DNA from: a virus | Strand: one strand, 5' to 3' | DNA: 53,597 bases | IMG/VR virus record: IMGVR_UViG_3300020196_001824 | Span: 1 to 53,597 of that record | In this document: positions 26,070 through 31,052 of the stretch, one piece after another | Layout of the letters: the number at the start of each line of letters is the position of its first letter | How positions within the stretch are numbered: position 1 is the first letter of the stretch | Notes under the pieces: model-generated | What the model was told of the DNA's origin: nothing | Database searches by the model: none | The model's input: the letters and a program-made list of their open reading frames with translations, nothing else | Translations under genes and position numbers: made by a program

Positions 26070-28142
26070 ATGACAACAAGGAATTTAGTTGCGTTTCAAA
26101 AAGGTTTGGTCTGTTCACCAAACGACGGTCAAGATAATAGAATCGCGGTAGCAACCGTTCAATCCCACTTAATGCAATGGGGTTACATGTTAGACGAAGA
26201 TGCTTTCTTCGCGTTGTCCAAATCAGAATTATCGTTTATTCAAAACTTCAATCATGAAGTATTGAATCATTTGAAAAATGTAATGGGTGGTAATCGTAAT
26301 TACCAACCCCTATATAAGAATTTCCCACAAGAAGTGATGGTTATGTCCGACTTCGAATTATACATGAACGCAATCTTGCATTATTGGAGTAATGGTCAAT
26401 GGGAACCATCAACCCACACTTACGAAAAAGAAATCAAGTTTGAAAAAATTAAATACAACTTGATTAAGTATGGTACCTCTGATAGATTCTCAAAAATTTT
26501 CACTGACTTAGTGTCAATCAACACATCATTAACCCCCCAAGACCTTGAGATTGTTAAGTGGTTTGTATCAAGTGGTGAAACATTGATTTTCCCTGACACA
26601 ATTCCTTTCAAAGAGAATTTGTGTACACTTGCGGGAATGGGAATCGAGGGACTTCCAGTAAAGACTTCAACCGACGTGTTAAGAATAGCCGTTCATCTTT
26701 CAGGTGGAGACATTAGTTTACCTAAAGTTCCTGAAAAGGAAATTAGACTAAACAGATGGTCTACCGATAAAGGAGTAAATCCCGAAAGAGAAAAGTTTAA
26801 ATTCAAGAAATTCACTCGTAAAGAGAGGAAGTACATCTTGAATTTACTTGAGAACACAAACTGTGACCCAAGAGAAATGGTTTTAAGAGACCAACGATGG
26901 GTTCGTTTAGGTGAAATCTTACACCCGGGTGAGTATAAAAACCAATTCCCTAAATCTTTTGATGCGTTCAACAAGATTAGAAACGAGAAAGTAAAATCTT
27001 GGTTCTCCCTTGTAGATGAGGGATTCAAAAAAAGTTTGGAGAATGGTTTGAGAGTATTGTCTCAAAGACCCGGTGAATTCTCTCGTCGATTAGATTGGTT
27101 GGTTCGTACATATCCACAAGATATTGAAACAATTATGAAATTATTCGGAGAAGCGGTAAAAGGTACATCAAACAAAGTATTGTTTGAGGTTTACACTCAC
27201 TTTGAAGGTCGTACTGAACCTAAAACAAATAGGTCAGTTATGATTAAAGGAGCGAGAAAACGTACCGAATTACCATCACTACAAGCAATCCCTAAAGAGA
27301 TTGTGGAAACCATCCACTCTAAATTATTCGAAACTCTTAGAGATAAGTTTTCGGTAATGGATTCTTTAGGTAACTGTTGGATTGATGAGGAATTAAAAAA
27401 GATTCCTTTACCAACCAACATGAGAAGTATGAACTTCTCAACTAAACCTACCATCAGAGGTCAACGAGTTCCGCTCGATAACCCCGATGCAAAAGTTATC
27501 AGACCATTTATTCATTGGATGGATAAACGTGGTTCTGAAGACTTGGATTTAAGTGTTACGTTTGTTGGTGAAAAAGTGTCAGAAGTACTATCTTTCAGTA
27601 ACTTGAGAGTTGGTAACTCTGTTCACTCGGGGGACGTGAGACATAGACAGGGTCCTTGTGCGGAGTACATCGACATCGATATTCAAGATGGATTAAATCG
27701 TGGATTCAAGTACGCGGTTATTGACGTAAGAAACTTCAATGGCGGTAGTTTAAGTTCACTTGAAACATCCTTTGGTATCATGGAGAGAGAACATCCTGAA
27801 TCAAACACGACATGGTTACCTGAGACAATTTCAAATTGTCAATCATTAGAATCTGAGTCGTCAAACACTTTGATTGCAATTATTGACTTAGAAACCAAAG
27901 AGTACATCATGTTGGACATTGATTCAAGTGGTTTTGTAACCGCGAGGAGCGACTTCAATAACACCTTTAAAGTAATTCAACAATACGCTGAATTACCAAA
28001 AGTAAGTGTTTATGACCTTATTCTTCTACACGTAGAAGGTCGAGGAAAACAAGTTACCCTTGACGAGAATGTGGATACACATTTCAAGTACGAGGACTTC
28101 TGTTACTCTTATGAAGAGACAGGTAAATTGATGGGTGTCTAA
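26070..28142 (+). CDS. Large protein with TerD-like C-terminal domain, 690 aa
   Basis: The N-terminal two thirds are mostly helical (NYQPLYKNFPQEVMVMSDFEL; LLENTNCDPREMVLRDQRW) and belong to a family I know only as hypothetical proteins of bacteria. Residues about 500-640 look TerD-like: DLDLSVTFVGE, VSEVLSFSNLR, HSGDVRHRQGPCAEYIDIDI, FKYAVIDVRNFNGG and a following ETSFGIMERE. TerD domains bind Ca2+ and act in stress systems; the acidic positions are partly kept. It has the best host-type promoter here, so strong early expression is likely. It is followed by 490 nt of noncoding sequence with a boxA-like motif. Role in infection unknown. Confidence 0.6.
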   Translation: MTTRNLVAFQKGLVCSPNDGQDNRIAVATVQSHLMQWGYMLDEDAFFALSKSELSFIQNFNHEVLNHLKNVMGGNRNYQPLYKNFPQEVMVMSDFELYMNAILHYWSNGQWEPSTHTYEKEIKFEKIKYNLIKYGTSDRFSKIFTDLVSINTSLTPQDLEIVKWFVSSGETLIFPDTIPFKENLCTLAGMGIEGLPVKTSTDVLRIAVHLSGGDISLPKVPEKEIRLNRWSTDKGVNPEREKFKFKKFTRKERKYILNLLENTNCDPREMVLRDQRWVRLGEILHPGEYKNQFPKSFDAFNKIRNEKVKSWFSLVDEGFKKSLENGLRVLSQRPGEFSRRLDWLVRTYPQDIETIMKLFGEAVKGTSNKVLFEVYTHFEGRTEPKTNRSVMIKGARKRTELPSLQAIPKEIVETIHSKLFETLRDKFSVMDSLGNCWIDEELKKIPLPTNMRSMNFSTKPTIRGQRVPLDNPDAKVIRPFIHWMDKRGSEDLDLSVTFVGEKVSEVLSFSNLRVGNSVHSGDVRHRQGPCAEYIDIDIQDGLNRGFKYAVIDVRNFNGGSLSSLETSFGIMEREHPESNTTWLPETISNCQSLESESSNTLIAIIDLETKEYIMLDIDSSGFVTARSDFNNTFKVIQQYAELPKVSVYDLILLHVEGRGKQVTLDENVDTHFKYEDFCYSYEETGKLMGV

Positions 28143-28153
28143 ACTCACCCATT

Positions 28154-28163
28154 AGTTCTTTGA
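28154..28163 (+). promoter_or_regulatory. boxA-like element after the 690-aa gene
   Basis: AGTTCTTTGA, sharing GTTCTTTGA with the elements before tRNA-Leu and the tmRNA. It opens a long noncoding stretch. Confidence 0.4.
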
Positions 28164-28570
28164 AATATTATATGTGGCTATGTGAGCCATTGAGAGGATA
28201 GTCAACTGACCATCACATCAAACCACGGAGTGGTTCTGTTTTGGTCCTTAGCGGTGACAAAAGTATCAATGCAAACGTCTTACTTCTAACAAACAACTAT
28301 CAGATACGAAAACCAGACACACAATTTCCACATAACTTCTTAGACGGCTATGTATTGGGTTACTTCTGCTAGGGGACTAATGTCCCCCCTTCTATAACAA
28401 TTATATGTTACATTACCCGTACTTTTTCCGTCAATCATATTGAGTGGCTATCTATCAACTTACTTCTAAATTTTAAGCAAAAAATCAAAAATTAGTTGTA
28501 GTCTTTCCACTTTTAAAACACACATGGATATGTGTTCAGTTATTTCTACTTTGACCGATAATCAAAACAA
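28164..28570 (+). ncRNA. Candidate long noncoding RNA region, about 400 nt
   Basis: No credible open frame on either strand. Small hairpins are visible (GGCT/AGCC at 28176, GTCA/TGAC at 28201, ACCAC/GTGGT at 28222, GGGGAC/GTCCCC at 28372). A 22-nt motif GGCTAT..TAT....TTACTTCT occurs at 28346 and again exactly 100 nt later at 28446, and TTACTTCT also at 28280. A boxA-like element precedes it. It may be a stable RNA of unknown class, a decayed gene, or a 3' UTR. Confidence 0.35.
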
Positions 28571-28630
28571 TTATTGACACAGTTTCCATTTTTTAAAAAC
28601 AACAAAATAAATAACATAAAAACAACAATT

Positions 28631-29077
28631 ATGGCAACAAAAACAACTGACCAGAAAGTAAAAGAACTATTCGATTTAGTTCAAAGTAAAAAATTAGCAA
28701 TTGAAAAAGCTGAAAGACCTTGTTGGAAAACCAGCGGTAACTTTGGTTATTCAGCGAATTCCGCACATGACAGGACATCAATTCCAACTATCACAGATGT
28801 ACGTAAAATCGTAGAGATGTACGCATTTCTGATGGAAAGAAAAGATAAATCCGAAACCGCAGCCAAAGAACTTGGCGTAAACTACAAATTCACATGGTTA
28901 GGATTTACTGTCGATGAATGGAAAGATGATTTTCAAACAAGAGTAAATCAAATTTTAATTCAAGAAAAACGTAAAGAACTTTCTGAAATTGAATCTCGTT
29001 TGAATTCATTAATTTCACCCGAGATAAGAGTACAAATGGAATTGGAAGCAATCACGGAGTTACTTAACGAAAAGTAA
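28631..29077 (+). CDS. Conserved phage protein, 148 aa
   Basis: The start is ATG 28631, preceded by an A-rich leader typical of Bacteroidetes genes; an in-frame ATG at 28574 would add 19 Asn/Lys-rich residues read from that leader. Helical protein with KVKELFDLVQSKKLAIEKAE, ERPCWKTSGNFGYS and a WLGFTVDEWKDDFQTRVNQI block. I recognise it as a conserved phage hypothetical without known function. Confidence 0.6.
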   Translation: MATKTTDQKVKELFDLVQSKKLAIEKAERPCWKTSGNFGYSANSAHDRTSIPTITDVRKIVEMYAFLMERKDKSETAAKELGVNYKFTWLGFTVDEWKDDFQTRVNQILIQEKRKELSEIESRLNSLISPEIRVQMELEAITELLNEK

Positions 29078-29134
29078 TTTCTTGGTTTTTTAAACCAAGT
29101 GGTGGAGTCGAACCGAGAAACCGGTCGTCCTAAA

Positions 29135-29165
29135 AAGGGGTTGGGTGACTAACCCCTTCTTTTTT
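29135..29165 (+). terminator. Rho-independent terminator before the metallophosphoesterase gene
   Basis: AAGGGGTT-gggtgact-AACCCCTT followed by CTTTTTTT. Confidence 0.85.
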
Positions 29166-29180
29166 AAACATATTTTTTGA

Positions 29181-29188
29181 TATATTTA
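29181..29188 (+). promoter_or_regulatory. Host-type -7 box (one mismatch) for the phosphoesterase gene
   Basis: TATATTTA, 5 nt before the ATG at 29194; no clear -33 element. Confidence 0.35.
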
Positions 29189-29193
29189 CAAAT

Positions 29194-29913
29194 ATGAGAA
29201 TAGTATGTATTTCTGACACCCACTCTTTACACAATGGTATGTTGTATAACATACCACAGGGAGATATTTTGATACACTCAGGAGATTGCACAAATGTCGG
29301 ACGACAAAATGATGTTCGTGATTTTATTAATTGGTTTCAAAATATACAAGGATTTACCCATAAAATTTTCATTGCAGGTAACCACGATTTTGCGTTTCAA
29401 AGAAAACCAACATGGTTAAATCTTTACATAGACCCATCAATTCTCACAGAAAATAATGTTACTTATTTGGAAGATGGTGAGTTGGAAATTATTAGTTCAG
29501 AATTCTCAAGACCAATAAAAATTTATGGTTCTCCATGGCAACCTGAATTTTTTGATTGGGCATTTAATTTACCAAGAAACGGTGAGGTGTTAAAAGAAAA
29601 ATGGGACTCAATCCCAAATAATACCGATATCTTAATAACACATGGTCCACCACATGGAATTAGAGATTTTACACCCAATAATTTACAGGTCGGATGTGAA
29701 CTTTTAAGAGAGCGTGTTGAAGTTTTAAAACCACTTTTACATGTTTTTGGTCACATACATGGTGCATATGGTGTTGCAATGATTGGCGATACAGTATTTG
29801 CTAACGCATCAACTTGTACAGAAAGGTATCGACCAATAAATAAACCATTAGTTTTTGATTTAATCGAAAATGATGGTATATTTACAATAAATTATATAGA
29901 CGAAGAAAATTAA
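29194..29913 (+). CDS. Calcineurin-like metallophosphoesterase, 239 aa
   Basis: All metal motifs are present: ISDTHSLH (DxH), HSGDCTNVG (GD), AGNHDF (GNHD), LITHGPPHG (H) and FGHIHGAYG (GHxH). Closest in style to MPPED-type and bacterial Rv0805-like phosphodiesterases, which act on cyclic nucleotides or other phosphodiesters. It lies between the RNA-repair/tRNA block and the tmRNA, so a 2',3'-cyclic phosphate or RNA-end substrate is conceivable but not shown. Length fits the family. Confidence 0.88.
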   Translation: MRIVCISDTHSLHNGMLYNIPQGDILIHSGDCTNVGRQNDVRDFINWFQNIQGFTHKIFIAGNHDFAFQRKPTWLNLYIDPSILTENNVTYLEDGELEIISSEFSRPIKIYGSPWQPEFFDWAFNLPRNGEVLKEKWDSIPNNTDILITHGPPHGIRDFTPNNLQVGCELLRERVEVLKPLLHVFGHIHGAYGVAMIGDTVFANASTCTERYRPINKPLVFDLIENDGIFTINYIDEEN

Positions 29914-29914
29914 C

Positions 29915-29922
29915 TATCTTTG
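29915..29922 (+). promoter_or_regulatory. Host-type -7 box TATCTTTG for the tmRNA
   Basis: Perfect TAnnTTTG, 18 nt before the mature tmRNA 5' end. No TTTG at the -33 position. Confidence 0.5.
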
Positions 29923-29938: not shown

Positions 29939-30033
29939 ATGGGGGTGTATGGAATTGATTGGCGTTGATATGGTAAATGGGCACGTAGTCGGATGTCATC
30001 TACGACTTTAATCCACGGTGGTAAATTTTAAAC

Positions 30034-30096
30034 GGCAACGTTTATAACCAAATGGAAGTAGCAGGTCTTCTTGCGACTTCTAAAGTTGCAGCCTAA
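30034..30096 (+). other. tmRNA tag reading frame (proteolysis tag)
   Basis: Starting from GGC at 30034 the frame reads GNVYNQMEVAGLLATSKVAA and stops at TAA. The end VAA fits ClpXP recognition. Twenty codons is long compared with the usual 8-12 for Bacteroidetes, so the resume codon might lie later in this frame. The other frames do not end in AA. Confidence 0.6.
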
Positions 30097-30304
30097 TTGG
30101 TTGTAACTAACGGGTCGACGGACAGATAACCTTGGAACAGAAGTCCTTGTAGGGTGTGGTTTCTATCCTAAAAGAAACAAAGTGGAAGATTAGTTCTCAG
30201 TAAACCGAACCACTTTAAAATAAGGGAATTGTGAATTTCGGAGTATTAGAAAATACTGTCCTAAACGTGTAGTCCATTTATTGTATTGCGAGCAAGACGC
30301 GGGT

Positions 30305-30497
30305 TTTTAATCGAGCCCCTTCATATCGTGAGATATGTCGAAAATCGGATGAACTCAGGGGAAGTCTTTTAGATAATCCTGAGCCAAGCCTGATAGGAAC
30401 AGGAAGGTGCAGAGACTAGTGGGTGATAGACGCTTCTATCGTAATACCACATTAGCGTCCGACATCTCGTTGAGATGATGATATAGTCCAATAATTG
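30305..30497 (+). other. Group I self-splicing intron in the tmRNA T-loop, 193 nt
   Basis: Core elements are near consensus: Q AATCCTGAGCCAAGCC (30375), R GGTGCAGAGACTA (30406) and S GATATAGTCC (30480), with GACTA/TAGTC forming P7. P1 pairs exon GGGT (30301-30304) with GCCC (30315-30318), giving the U-G pair at the 5' splice site; the intron ends in G at 30497. P2 is CATATC-GTGA-GATATG and P9 CATCTC/GAGATG. No open frame lies inside; the HNH gene at 30531 is outside, on the other strand. Confidence 0.92.
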
Positions 30498-30518
30498 TCG
30501 AAACCCGCCACCTCCACA

Positions 30519-30551
30519 TTAAAGGGAACCTCAAAAGGGTTCCCTTTTATT
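30519..30551 (+). terminator. Rho-independent terminator of the tmRNA
   Basis: AAAGGGAACC-tcaaaag-GGTTCCCTTT followed by TATTTTT. It overlaps the last codons (KREPF) and stop of the converging HNH gene. Confidence 0.9.
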
Positions 30552-31052
30552 TTTAATTAAAATACTAATTAATTCATGAATATACGCATCATCCATTTCA
30601 TTTTTCATCCAATTAATTGCCCTTGAAACCCATCTAACATTTCCTTTAACATAACCTAATTTATTATCTATCCTATCTAAAGACGCAGAATATATTGGAT
30701 TCTTTTTTATTTTGGTATATGATGACAACTCTAATTTTATACCACTGAATGGACAAATTCCATTTTGTAAAACCCATTGATTAGACAAATCTTCAATAGT
30801 TAAATCAATAATTTGATTTCTTTTTTTAATATTTCTAAAATGATATTTGAATTTTGAATATTCCCCACCTCTATTATTTGAGTGTCTTTGTATATCGTAT
30901 CGATTTTTAACGTTTAATAAATTTTTAGTATTGTTAATACCAACACAATTTCTTGAACAAAAATTAGGTCTATTTAATTTTTTATTACGATTTAATTCAG
31001 AATTTGATTTTTCAAATTCAATCCCACAGCTTGAACAAATACATTTTCCCAT
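30531..31052 (-). CDS. HNH homing endonuclease, 173 aa
   Basis: An N-terminal zinc knuckle (CICSSCGIEFEKS ... FCSRNCVG, Cys4) precedes the HNH nuclease: ICPFSGIKLE, SASLDRIDNKLGYVKGNVRW with the catalytic Asp-Arg region, and a C-terminal helix. This is the type found as free-standing phage homing endonucleases. It converges on the tmRNA: its stop is 15 nt past the tmRNA 3' end and its final codons are built from the tmRNA terminator. Late-type box 13 nt upstream. It probably cleaves intron-less tmRNA genes and so spreads the group I intron, as inferred from position. Confidence 0.85.
   Translation of the reverse strand: MGKCICSSCGIEFEKSNSELNRNKKLNRPNFCSRNCVGINNTKNLLNVKNRYDIQRHSNNRGGEYSKFKYHFRNIKKRNQIIDLTIEDLSNQWVLQNGICPFSGIKLELSSYTKIKKNPIYSASLDRIDNKLGYVKGNVRWVSRAINWMKNEMDDAYIHELISILIKNKREPF

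Follow-up and report, generated by a model that had tools for sequence, protein, structure and literature searches.

The virus fragment analysed here (the window, meaning the whole stretch of 53,597 bases, with portal, major head and terminase genes) appears to encode its own tmRNA, and we find that a group I intron of the self-splicing type interrupts the T loop of this tmRNA gene. The split gene is well supported by the evidence below; splicing is inferred, as is any function of the tmRNA in infection. A gene for an endonuclease-like protein adjoins the tmRNA and is probably the other half of the element, its nuclease activity again being an inference. Read directly from the sequences are the tmRNA, the intron, its site, the co-variation of the T stem across it, the association of the neighbouring open reading frame (hereafter the ORF), and a pair of sister phages that differs by intron and ORF. 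As the best explanation we propose collaborative homing at the tmRNA gene, which we consider likely, with splicing, nuclease activity, target site, homing and tmRNA function all inferred.

The first-pass annotation, made from the letters alone, had called a phage tmRNA gene interrupted in its T loop, and these parts that it named are present: for the acceptor, GGGGGTG (29941-29947) with CACCTCC (30509-30515); for the T stem, GCGGG (30299-30303) with CCCGC (30504-30508); and a tag frame (Table 1). CCA is not encoded in the 3′ exon. Run on the whole window, ARAGORN called four tRNAs but no tmRNA; it found nothing in the interrupted gene, and it returned a full tmRNA with the tag GNVYNQMEVAGLLATSKVAA* once 30305-30497 was left out; the annotation, which was to fall if no tmRNA appeared after removal of the intron, survives on this point. 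Of the two Rfam searches that it had suggested, the one for the intron succeeded, whereas the tmRNA model (RF00023) gave 35.4 bits on the interrupted gene, over 29941-30326, which is below its gathering score of 47 (E 1.6e-12, 751 bases searched). The same model scores 70-111 bits in eleven intronless relatives, all over the gathering score. The tRNA-like ends, the resume and tag frame and the long pseudoknot region are thus present by ARAGORN on the joined exons and by RF00023 in the 11 intronless relatives, and the 5′ exon is based on the RF00023 match, ARAGORN on the joined exons and syntenic relatives without the intron.

Table 1. Features of the tmRNA locus in the window.
Feature	Position	Strand	Content or basis
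TAnnTTTG promoter-like box (TATCTTTG)	29915-29922	+	precedes the tmRNA; read in the sequence
Complete tmRNA gene	29941-30516	+	split after the first T-loop base by the intron 30305-30497
tmRNA 5′ exon	29941-30304	+	acceptor 5′ strand, tag frame, pseudoknot region, T-stem 5′ half, first T-loop base
tmRNA tag frame, GNVYNQMEVAGLLATSKVAA*	30034-30096	+	ARAGORN
ORF-less group I intron, 193 nt	30305-30497	+	RF00028, 68.8 bits; L011 and L014 share the insertion site
Internal guide sequence TCGA|GCCC	30311-30318	+	pairs with GGGT|TCGA of the joined exons, giving U.G at the splice site
tmRNA 3′ exon	30498-30516	+	remainder of T loop, T-stem 3′ half, acceptor CACCTCC, discriminator A
Hairpin and T-run, intrinsic-terminator-like	30524-30555	+	read in the sequence, no terminator scan
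HNH/EndoVII-like ORF, 173 aa, proposed free-standing homing endonuclease	30531-31052	-	PHROG profiles, linkage

The tmRNA has a promoter-like box of its own, and the terminator-like hairpin behind it overlaps the 3′ end of the convergent ORF. A TAnnTTTG box, which we take to be the Bacteroidota -7 element, lies within 45 nt upstream of 65 of the 73 distinct phage tmRNA starts, against a mean of 3.55 in shuffled sequence. A closely similar long tag was found in 13 of the 18 related loci with an ARAGORN tmRNA, and a shorter tag was assigned in the other 5. We observed that the tags of this family are long, often end in KVAA or NVAVA, and are common to diverged phages (the same 13 of 18 calls); the most frequent tmRNA tag length is 10 aa, shorter than these, according to PMC11915505.

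The evidence for the intron comes from its core, its ends and its relatives. The Rfam Intron_gpI model (RF00028) matches 30295-30507 at 68.8 bits (gathering score 50, E 1.9e-15). The intron is inserted between T-loop bases 1 and 2, a position that we equate with subsite 2, and its terminal base is a G (30497). On the 5′ exon the guide pairs with GGGT, where a U.G pair marks the splice site, and on the 3′ exon it pairs with TCGA, so the U-G pair of P1 and the terminal G of the first-pass annotation are both borne out. That annotation had also predicted that excision restores a normal T arm, and nature supplies the product: the arm of the intronless relative L008 is exactly the joined sequence GACGCGGGT-TCGAAACCCGCCACCTCCAC, identical to the predicted spliced arm of the window. 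The splice sites 30304/30498 are supported because the intronless relatives (L008 exactly), the terminal G and the guide pairing all indicate them. As a single strand, 30299-30508 folds better than shuffled versions of itself (z -3.09, 1 of 200 as good). RF00028, ARAGORN, the intronless relatives and the T-stem co-variation described below therefore uphold the call of a group I intron that splits a tmRNA in its T loop. The window intron does not meet the criterion for a Bacteroidia-type intron, insertion after the second T-loop base (subsite 3); that base is used by introns on other phage contigs.

Relatives were collected from viral contigs with the metallophosphoesterase gene that precedes the tmRNA (29194-29913), which found 284, of which the best 80 were kept. 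Four of these (L004-L007) hold the same tmRNA locus at 100%, and others carry a tmRNA at this position. When 16 of these loci were aligned with the window, L011 and L014 proved to share its intron site, and the T arm is unbroken in the other 14; the intronless relatives are natural empty sites. A scan with the core pattern returned 47 stretches, and together with loci collected earlier there were 56 core matches. Four were cut by a contig end (L229, L246, L247 and L256), one lies in a tRNA (L258), and the 51 that could be parsed yield 29 distinct phage tmRNAs with an intron, at either of two T-loop subsites that differ by one base. Fifteen of the 29 introns follow the first T-loop base and are window-like, with lengths of 192-197 nt; the other 14 were called after the second base, thirteen of them with 222-228 nt and L233 with 213 nt. 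The guide matches both exons with a U.G pair at the splice site in 27 of the 29 rows, window included, the exceptions being L011, which is tied between two guides, and L233, a misfit. At the first subsite the guide is TCGA|GCCC-like and at the second TCG|GACCC-like, a difference of two bases that shifts the U.G pair, and hence the splice site, by one base and leaves the joined exons unchanged. L233 and L397, from the same contig, combine a subsite-2 5′ half with a subsite-3 3′ half at the contig end; L233 is probably chimeric, as an assembly chimera or a recombinant.

Once the presumed chimera L233 is set aside, 26 of 28 distinct sequences have a perfect T stem (five Watson-Crick pairs) across the intron, and the two others keep four pairs (L254) or four plus a G.U (L257). 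Shuffling of the 3′ halves gave a mean of 5.2 perfect stems and a maximum of 15 in 100,000 trials. The rows in this test are related and not independent, and eight different perfect stem sequences are found among them. Judged from these contigs, the intron-split phage tmRNA is widespread, the same arrangement recurring in other phages; within an unselected set of 88 tmRNAs, described below, the intron is present in at most 3 distinct phages.

A relative of the window intron was also seen by eye in the anticodon loop of a CAT tRNA on a viral contig (L258:8845-9046, minus strand). Some of the phages contain long tRNA genes of 123-130 nt (L016:4233-4362 and L011:3606-3728), with similar long matches in L013, L015, L017, L018 and L020. 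ARAGORN places an insertion of 56 nt (L016) or 33 nt (L011) in the anticodon loop, which is too short for a group I intron. No such long tRNA match was found in 28101-29200 of the window. At 28346-28547 the window has three spaced copies of a 22-nt sequence like GGCTATGTATTGGGTTACTTCT, and the tRNA insertions of L011 and L016 contain, as judged by eye, something similar; a pattern built on it, one mismatch being allowed, had no match in the window. GOLLD RNA (RF02032) was observed at L012:3846-4251 and L231:1-240, within a few kb of a phage tmRNA.

The first-pass annotation had described the phage as T4-like and of a Bacteroidetes type, a label that fits but remains inferential. Among 50,697 phage records, the named phages closest in portal and terminase, at 28-44% identity, are Microcystis phage Mel-JY01 and the Flavobacterium immuto phages; for the portal, a single uncultured phage without annotation ranks between Mel-JY01 and immuto. 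The immuto portal is annotated as T4-like Gp20, and the TAnnTTTG box agrees with the second half of the label. No tmRNA over the cut-off was found in immuto or Mel-JY01. A blastn search matched 42 phage records, and in the 20 listed the alignments lay only within the intron and covered no whole gene. SmpB was not found on the two longest assemblies of the window phage (134 and 171 kb), from which we infer that its tmRNA probably uses the SmpB of the host. Among related contigs, 3 of 9 in one set and 4 of 41 in another have an SmpB gene (the sets share four contigs, and most are fragments), for example at L094:1492-1932, L021:7334-7753 and L016:1057-1479; it follows an RNase H-like gene or lies near the tmRNA, and in L021 just behind it.

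We also searched for a host origin of the intron. A pattern scan of genome contigs gave 18 stretches that we read as chance matches, neither a tmRNA nor an intron core being seen in the flanks inspected. RF00028 had 41 matches in 29 of 395 Bacteroidota genomes; the 30 flanks read by eye were tRNA, 23S rRNA or other genes without a tmRNA, and 11 remained unread. A second model, R1, was derived from alignment A1, whose first columns are misaligned. It hit 21 of the same 395 genomes (loci L323-L342 were not read separately) and gave 24 matches in 23 of 149 genomes from the phylum of G011. In 20 R1 loci of the latter set the readable exons are tRNAs, L308 is unresolved and no tmRNA was seen. With no tmRNA in the host matches searched, no host group is shown as donor.

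The ORF is convergent to the tmRNA, its stop codon lying 14 nt beyond the tmRNA end. The window ORF matches PHROG endonuclease profiles (E 6.5e-22 and 7.8e-13) and, more weakly, an anti-sigma-factor profile (E 1e-10), and it has no Pfam match. All 21 aligned ORFs match the PHROG endonuclease, EndoVII, HNH and Srd anti-sigma-factor profiles, the best E for Srd being 4.8e-17, and 14 of the 21 also match a sigma70 decoy family. A role other than that of a nuclease is possible because of these Srd and sigma70 matches. At dN/dS values of 0.09-0.14 in six pairs, the ORF is, by this estimate, under purifying selection. The predicted structure (mean pLDDT 79.9, pTM 0.56) gave only weak fold matches: the HNH enzyme PacI (Z 6.2), Gme HNH (Z 4.8) and T4 EndoVII (Z 3.9), with two unrelated chains ranking second and third and a best nuclease Foldseek E of about 0.1. 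A sequence search of solved structures returned 3 chains at E up to 1, none a nuclease. By eye, the ORF has DRID in place of the D-H-x-H pattern of EndoVII and F-CphI, and in the absence of that pattern catalysis is not assured. The D-H-H-R-N catalytic set is likewise not met, since no His is invariant in the 21 aligned ORFs (the F-CphI sequence was not aligned). With these residues not visible, the ORF is not placed in the F-CphI enzyme family, and it may act alike.

We found that the ORF goes together with a T arm that is interrupted or altered. In a loose comparison it occurs somewhere in 36 of 51 intron loci against 3 of 95 loci with an unbroken T arm, counts that include duplicate contigs and truncated loci. 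A sample blind to the T arm was then drawn with a pattern for the 5′ domain of the tmRNA, giving 111 stretches. Five of these lie in loci collected before (L091, L093, L103 and L104 among them, all intron-bearing); from the 106 used we removed 6 that were too short and 12 with no ORF and <700 nt downstream, leaving 88. An arm was called intact if the 5′ T stem ends in GGG and is followed by TTC. The ORF accompanies none of 53 intact arms and 14 of 35 with an intron or an altered arm (4 intron, 10 altered), and the ORF-less relatives mostly keep the putative target (53 intact, 21 altered). Two of the 4 rows with intron and ORF (L099 and L101) are assemblies of the window's own phage. The association has a Fisher p of 3.6e-7, or 1.6e-5 for the intronless rows alone; after clustering at 92% the counts are 9, 0, 9 and 28 (p 4.4e-5, or 8e-4 for intronless rows). 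A tree was built from the tmRNAs of 73 of the 88 rows, after removal of exact repeats and of one truncated row; on it the ORF requires 9 changes. In 9 independent pairs that differ in the ORF, T-arm protection changes in the same direction 6.7 times on average and in the opposite direction 0 times, a modest result by sign test (median p 0.016, range 0.008-0.06). As a reconstruction, the tree supports repeated joint gain of the ORF and of T-arm protection.

A second sample was obtained by a profile search for the ORF, before which the hypothesis had been set down. It returned 67 loci, 63 of which adjoin a tmRNA: 29 with an intron, 32 with an altered arm and 2 with an intact one. By script alone the 67 had been divided into 28 intron, 32 altered, 2 intact and 5 unresolved; inspection by eye added L393 to the intron class and L374 and L390 to the altered class, and exposed L424 and L425 as false altered calls that are not tmRNAs. 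L411 is too short, and L422 shows no tmRNA. Many of the 67 overlap the previous samples. On contigs outside those samples there are 24 resolved loci (L368, L373, L383-L393, L395, L406, L407, L412-L415, L418, L420, L421 and L423), of which 22 have an altered arm, 2 an intron and 0 an intact arm; overlap of this subset with the contigs of L183-L208 is possible. The two exceptions, L416 and L417 (the same as L357 and L358), are divergent, with an ORF of 43.5% identity beside GGG-TTC. In the altered arms the stem is still paired, the loop-closing GGG has become GGT, GGC, CGG, CAG, GAT, GGA or others, and some have a six-base loop or no TTC. The loop-closing pair G53-C61 is near-universal in tRNAs. 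In L120, L147, L192, L196, L201, L205, L126 and L373 we observed a T loop without TTC (GGCRGTR or similar) over a paired stem.

The sister phages L014 and L016 suggest, from their alignment, that intron and ORF moved together. They share 92.9% identity over the preceding gene, 92.5% over the opening 200 nt of the tmRNA and 98.0% and 94.1% over the parts that follow, and L014 alone has the intron and the ORF. L014 shows just 68.3% identity to the window over the preceding gene, with 84.0% and 58.6% for the tmRNA parts, and reaches 93.2% in the intron, 85.0% in the ORF and 79% in the next 250 nt. High identity of the intron is by itself no proof of transfer, because intron cores may evolve slowly, and the identity of the ORF is the better sign. 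In L016 the slot beside the tmRNA holds a homing endonuclease of another type (phrog_314, E 6.1e-31, GIY-YIG-like by eye), and in L010 it is empty, so it appears to be a general endonuclease slot.

On the reading we prefer, the ORF product would be a free-standing homing endonuclease that, during mixed infection, cuts the uninterrupted tmRNA genes of rival viruses at the GGG-TTC T arm, and repair from the carrier would copy intron and endonuclease together. The intron would protect the carrier by splitting the recognition site, and it would remove itself from the transcript through a guide that matches the joined T arm, leaving a normal arm; it may thus serve as both armour and hitch-hiker. 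Other carriers would be protected by mutated T arms, which are expected in intronless carriers if the site of the enzyme is the insertion site of the intron. Loss of the ORF after fixation would explain the 21 altered arms without it, loss itself not having been shown.

The same locus could instead hold a resident self-splicing intron, inherited vertically or by ordinary recombination, beside an ORF that merely sits in a hotspot for mobile genes, with T arms varying for other reasons. The absence of the ORF from 8 of 21 distinct intron-bearing rows fits this account, as do the different occupants of the slot in L016 and L010 (the intron locus L245 has yet another HNH ORF beside its tmRNA). It is nonetheless unlikely in our judgement, given the split of 0/53 intact against 14/35 protected arms, the repeated joint changes on the tmRNA tree, and an intron and ORF common to otherwise diverged phages and missing from a close sister. 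It is also conceivable that the altered arms, and perhaps the intron, answer a host or rival nuclease that reads the T arm of tmRNA or tRNA as RNA, the ORF tracking such lineages or being a sigma-factor decoy. Such an origin would suit the altered arms, which change the RNA too, including the G53-C61 pair, the Srd match of all 21 ORFs, and a report, seen in part, that the Septu defence cuts a phage tRNA (PMC13096335). We consider it very unlikely: the link is to one neighbouring gene, and an intron that is spliced out leaves the T arm of the RNA unchanged and would protect the DNA, not the RNA.

Two further accounts concern the tmRNA itself. If the intron were a regulatory switch that delays or conditions tmRNA maturation in infection, splicing would be the sole visible control besides the promoter-like box and terminator-like hairpin that the gene has of its own; yet the intron occurs in no more than the 3 phages of the unselected 88, and the introns of 192-197 nt have no obvious extra domain (no dedicated search was made), which leaves us giving this idea even less weight. 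That the locus is a decayed or decoy tmRNA, left unspliced, has in its favour only the lack of expression data; T-stem co-variation across the intron and the retained tag frame and acceptor make it barely credible. Beyond the collaborative homing that we favour for this locus, we lean towards a broader proposition, with less assurance and from sequence comparison alone: phage tmRNA genes would be a battleground for a family of tmRNA-specific homing endonucleases, from which carriers escape by a group I intron in the T loop or by a rewritten T arm (an altered closing pair G53-C61, a loop of six bases or a missing TTC, pairing of the stem being retained), so that selection at the DNA level would override the tRNA-like consensus.

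These results place group I introns in phage tmRNA genes and supply a likely driver. It is an open question by what route an intron without an ORF and an independent endonuclease end up at one site and move as a unit, and the phages offer many natural replicates of it: two insertion subsites that differ by one base, sites that lack the intron, the ORF both in company of the intron and without it, and another form of immunity. The altered arms also suggest which features of the T arm are dispensable for a working tmRNA.

Bacterial tmRNAs with a T-loop intron, phages with a tmRNA, and collaborative homing are each already known. The first-pass annotation had thought an intron-bearing tmRNA undescribed for a T4-like Bacteroidetes-type phage, and among the papers listed in our literature searches no title or abstract start reports an intron-bearing phage tmRNA or a homing endonuclease that targets tmRNA. 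Zeng and others, in 2009, reportedly described the collaborative homing of F-CphI and the psbA intron. The bacterial intron form of tmRNA numbers 883 unique sequences, and in the parts of PMC11915505 available to us it resembles the phage form in having a T-loop group I intron with a U before it and a G at its end, in mostly lacking a homing endonuclease gene, and in a P7.1-type extra region, which we see by eye in the phage intron. It differs in being bacterial and in the distribution of its subsites: subsite 2 belongs to Anaerolineae and one Myxococcota and subsite 3 to Bacteroidia (the match of numbering is inferred), whereas both are used within one closely related set of phage introns. 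The same source counts 79 phage tmRNAs, and its main-text parts, supplements excluded, mention no phage intron form. Introns related to ours are also shared with bacterial tRNAs, the flanks read in the 395 Bacteroidota and 149 other genomes placing them mostly in anticodon loops; host gene and insertion site are different there. Parts of the trans-translation system are carried, as here, by huge phages (PMC7162821) and by mycobacteriophages and phage G (PMC4131195), the word intron not occurring in the main text of either source so far as it was covered; unlike phage systems of tmRNA plus SmpB, the window phage has no SmpB on its 134- and 171-kb assemblies, though some relatives have it. The closest parallel to the proposed mechanism is in cyanophage S-PM2, where F-CphI, free-standing and EndoVII-like, cuts intronless psbA and the neighbouring intron protects the carrier (PMC6083498, consulted in part). 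In both cases a free-standing EndoVII-like gene, so classed here from profiles and weak fold matches, adjoins an intron-containing gene, and the intron prevents self-cleavage, here by proposal. The tmRNA locus differs in that its evidence comes from many natural lineages and no enzyme assay, that the DHHRN signature is not visible in the window ORF, that the target gene is a tmRNA, and that a second apparent route to immunity exists, mutation of the T arm.
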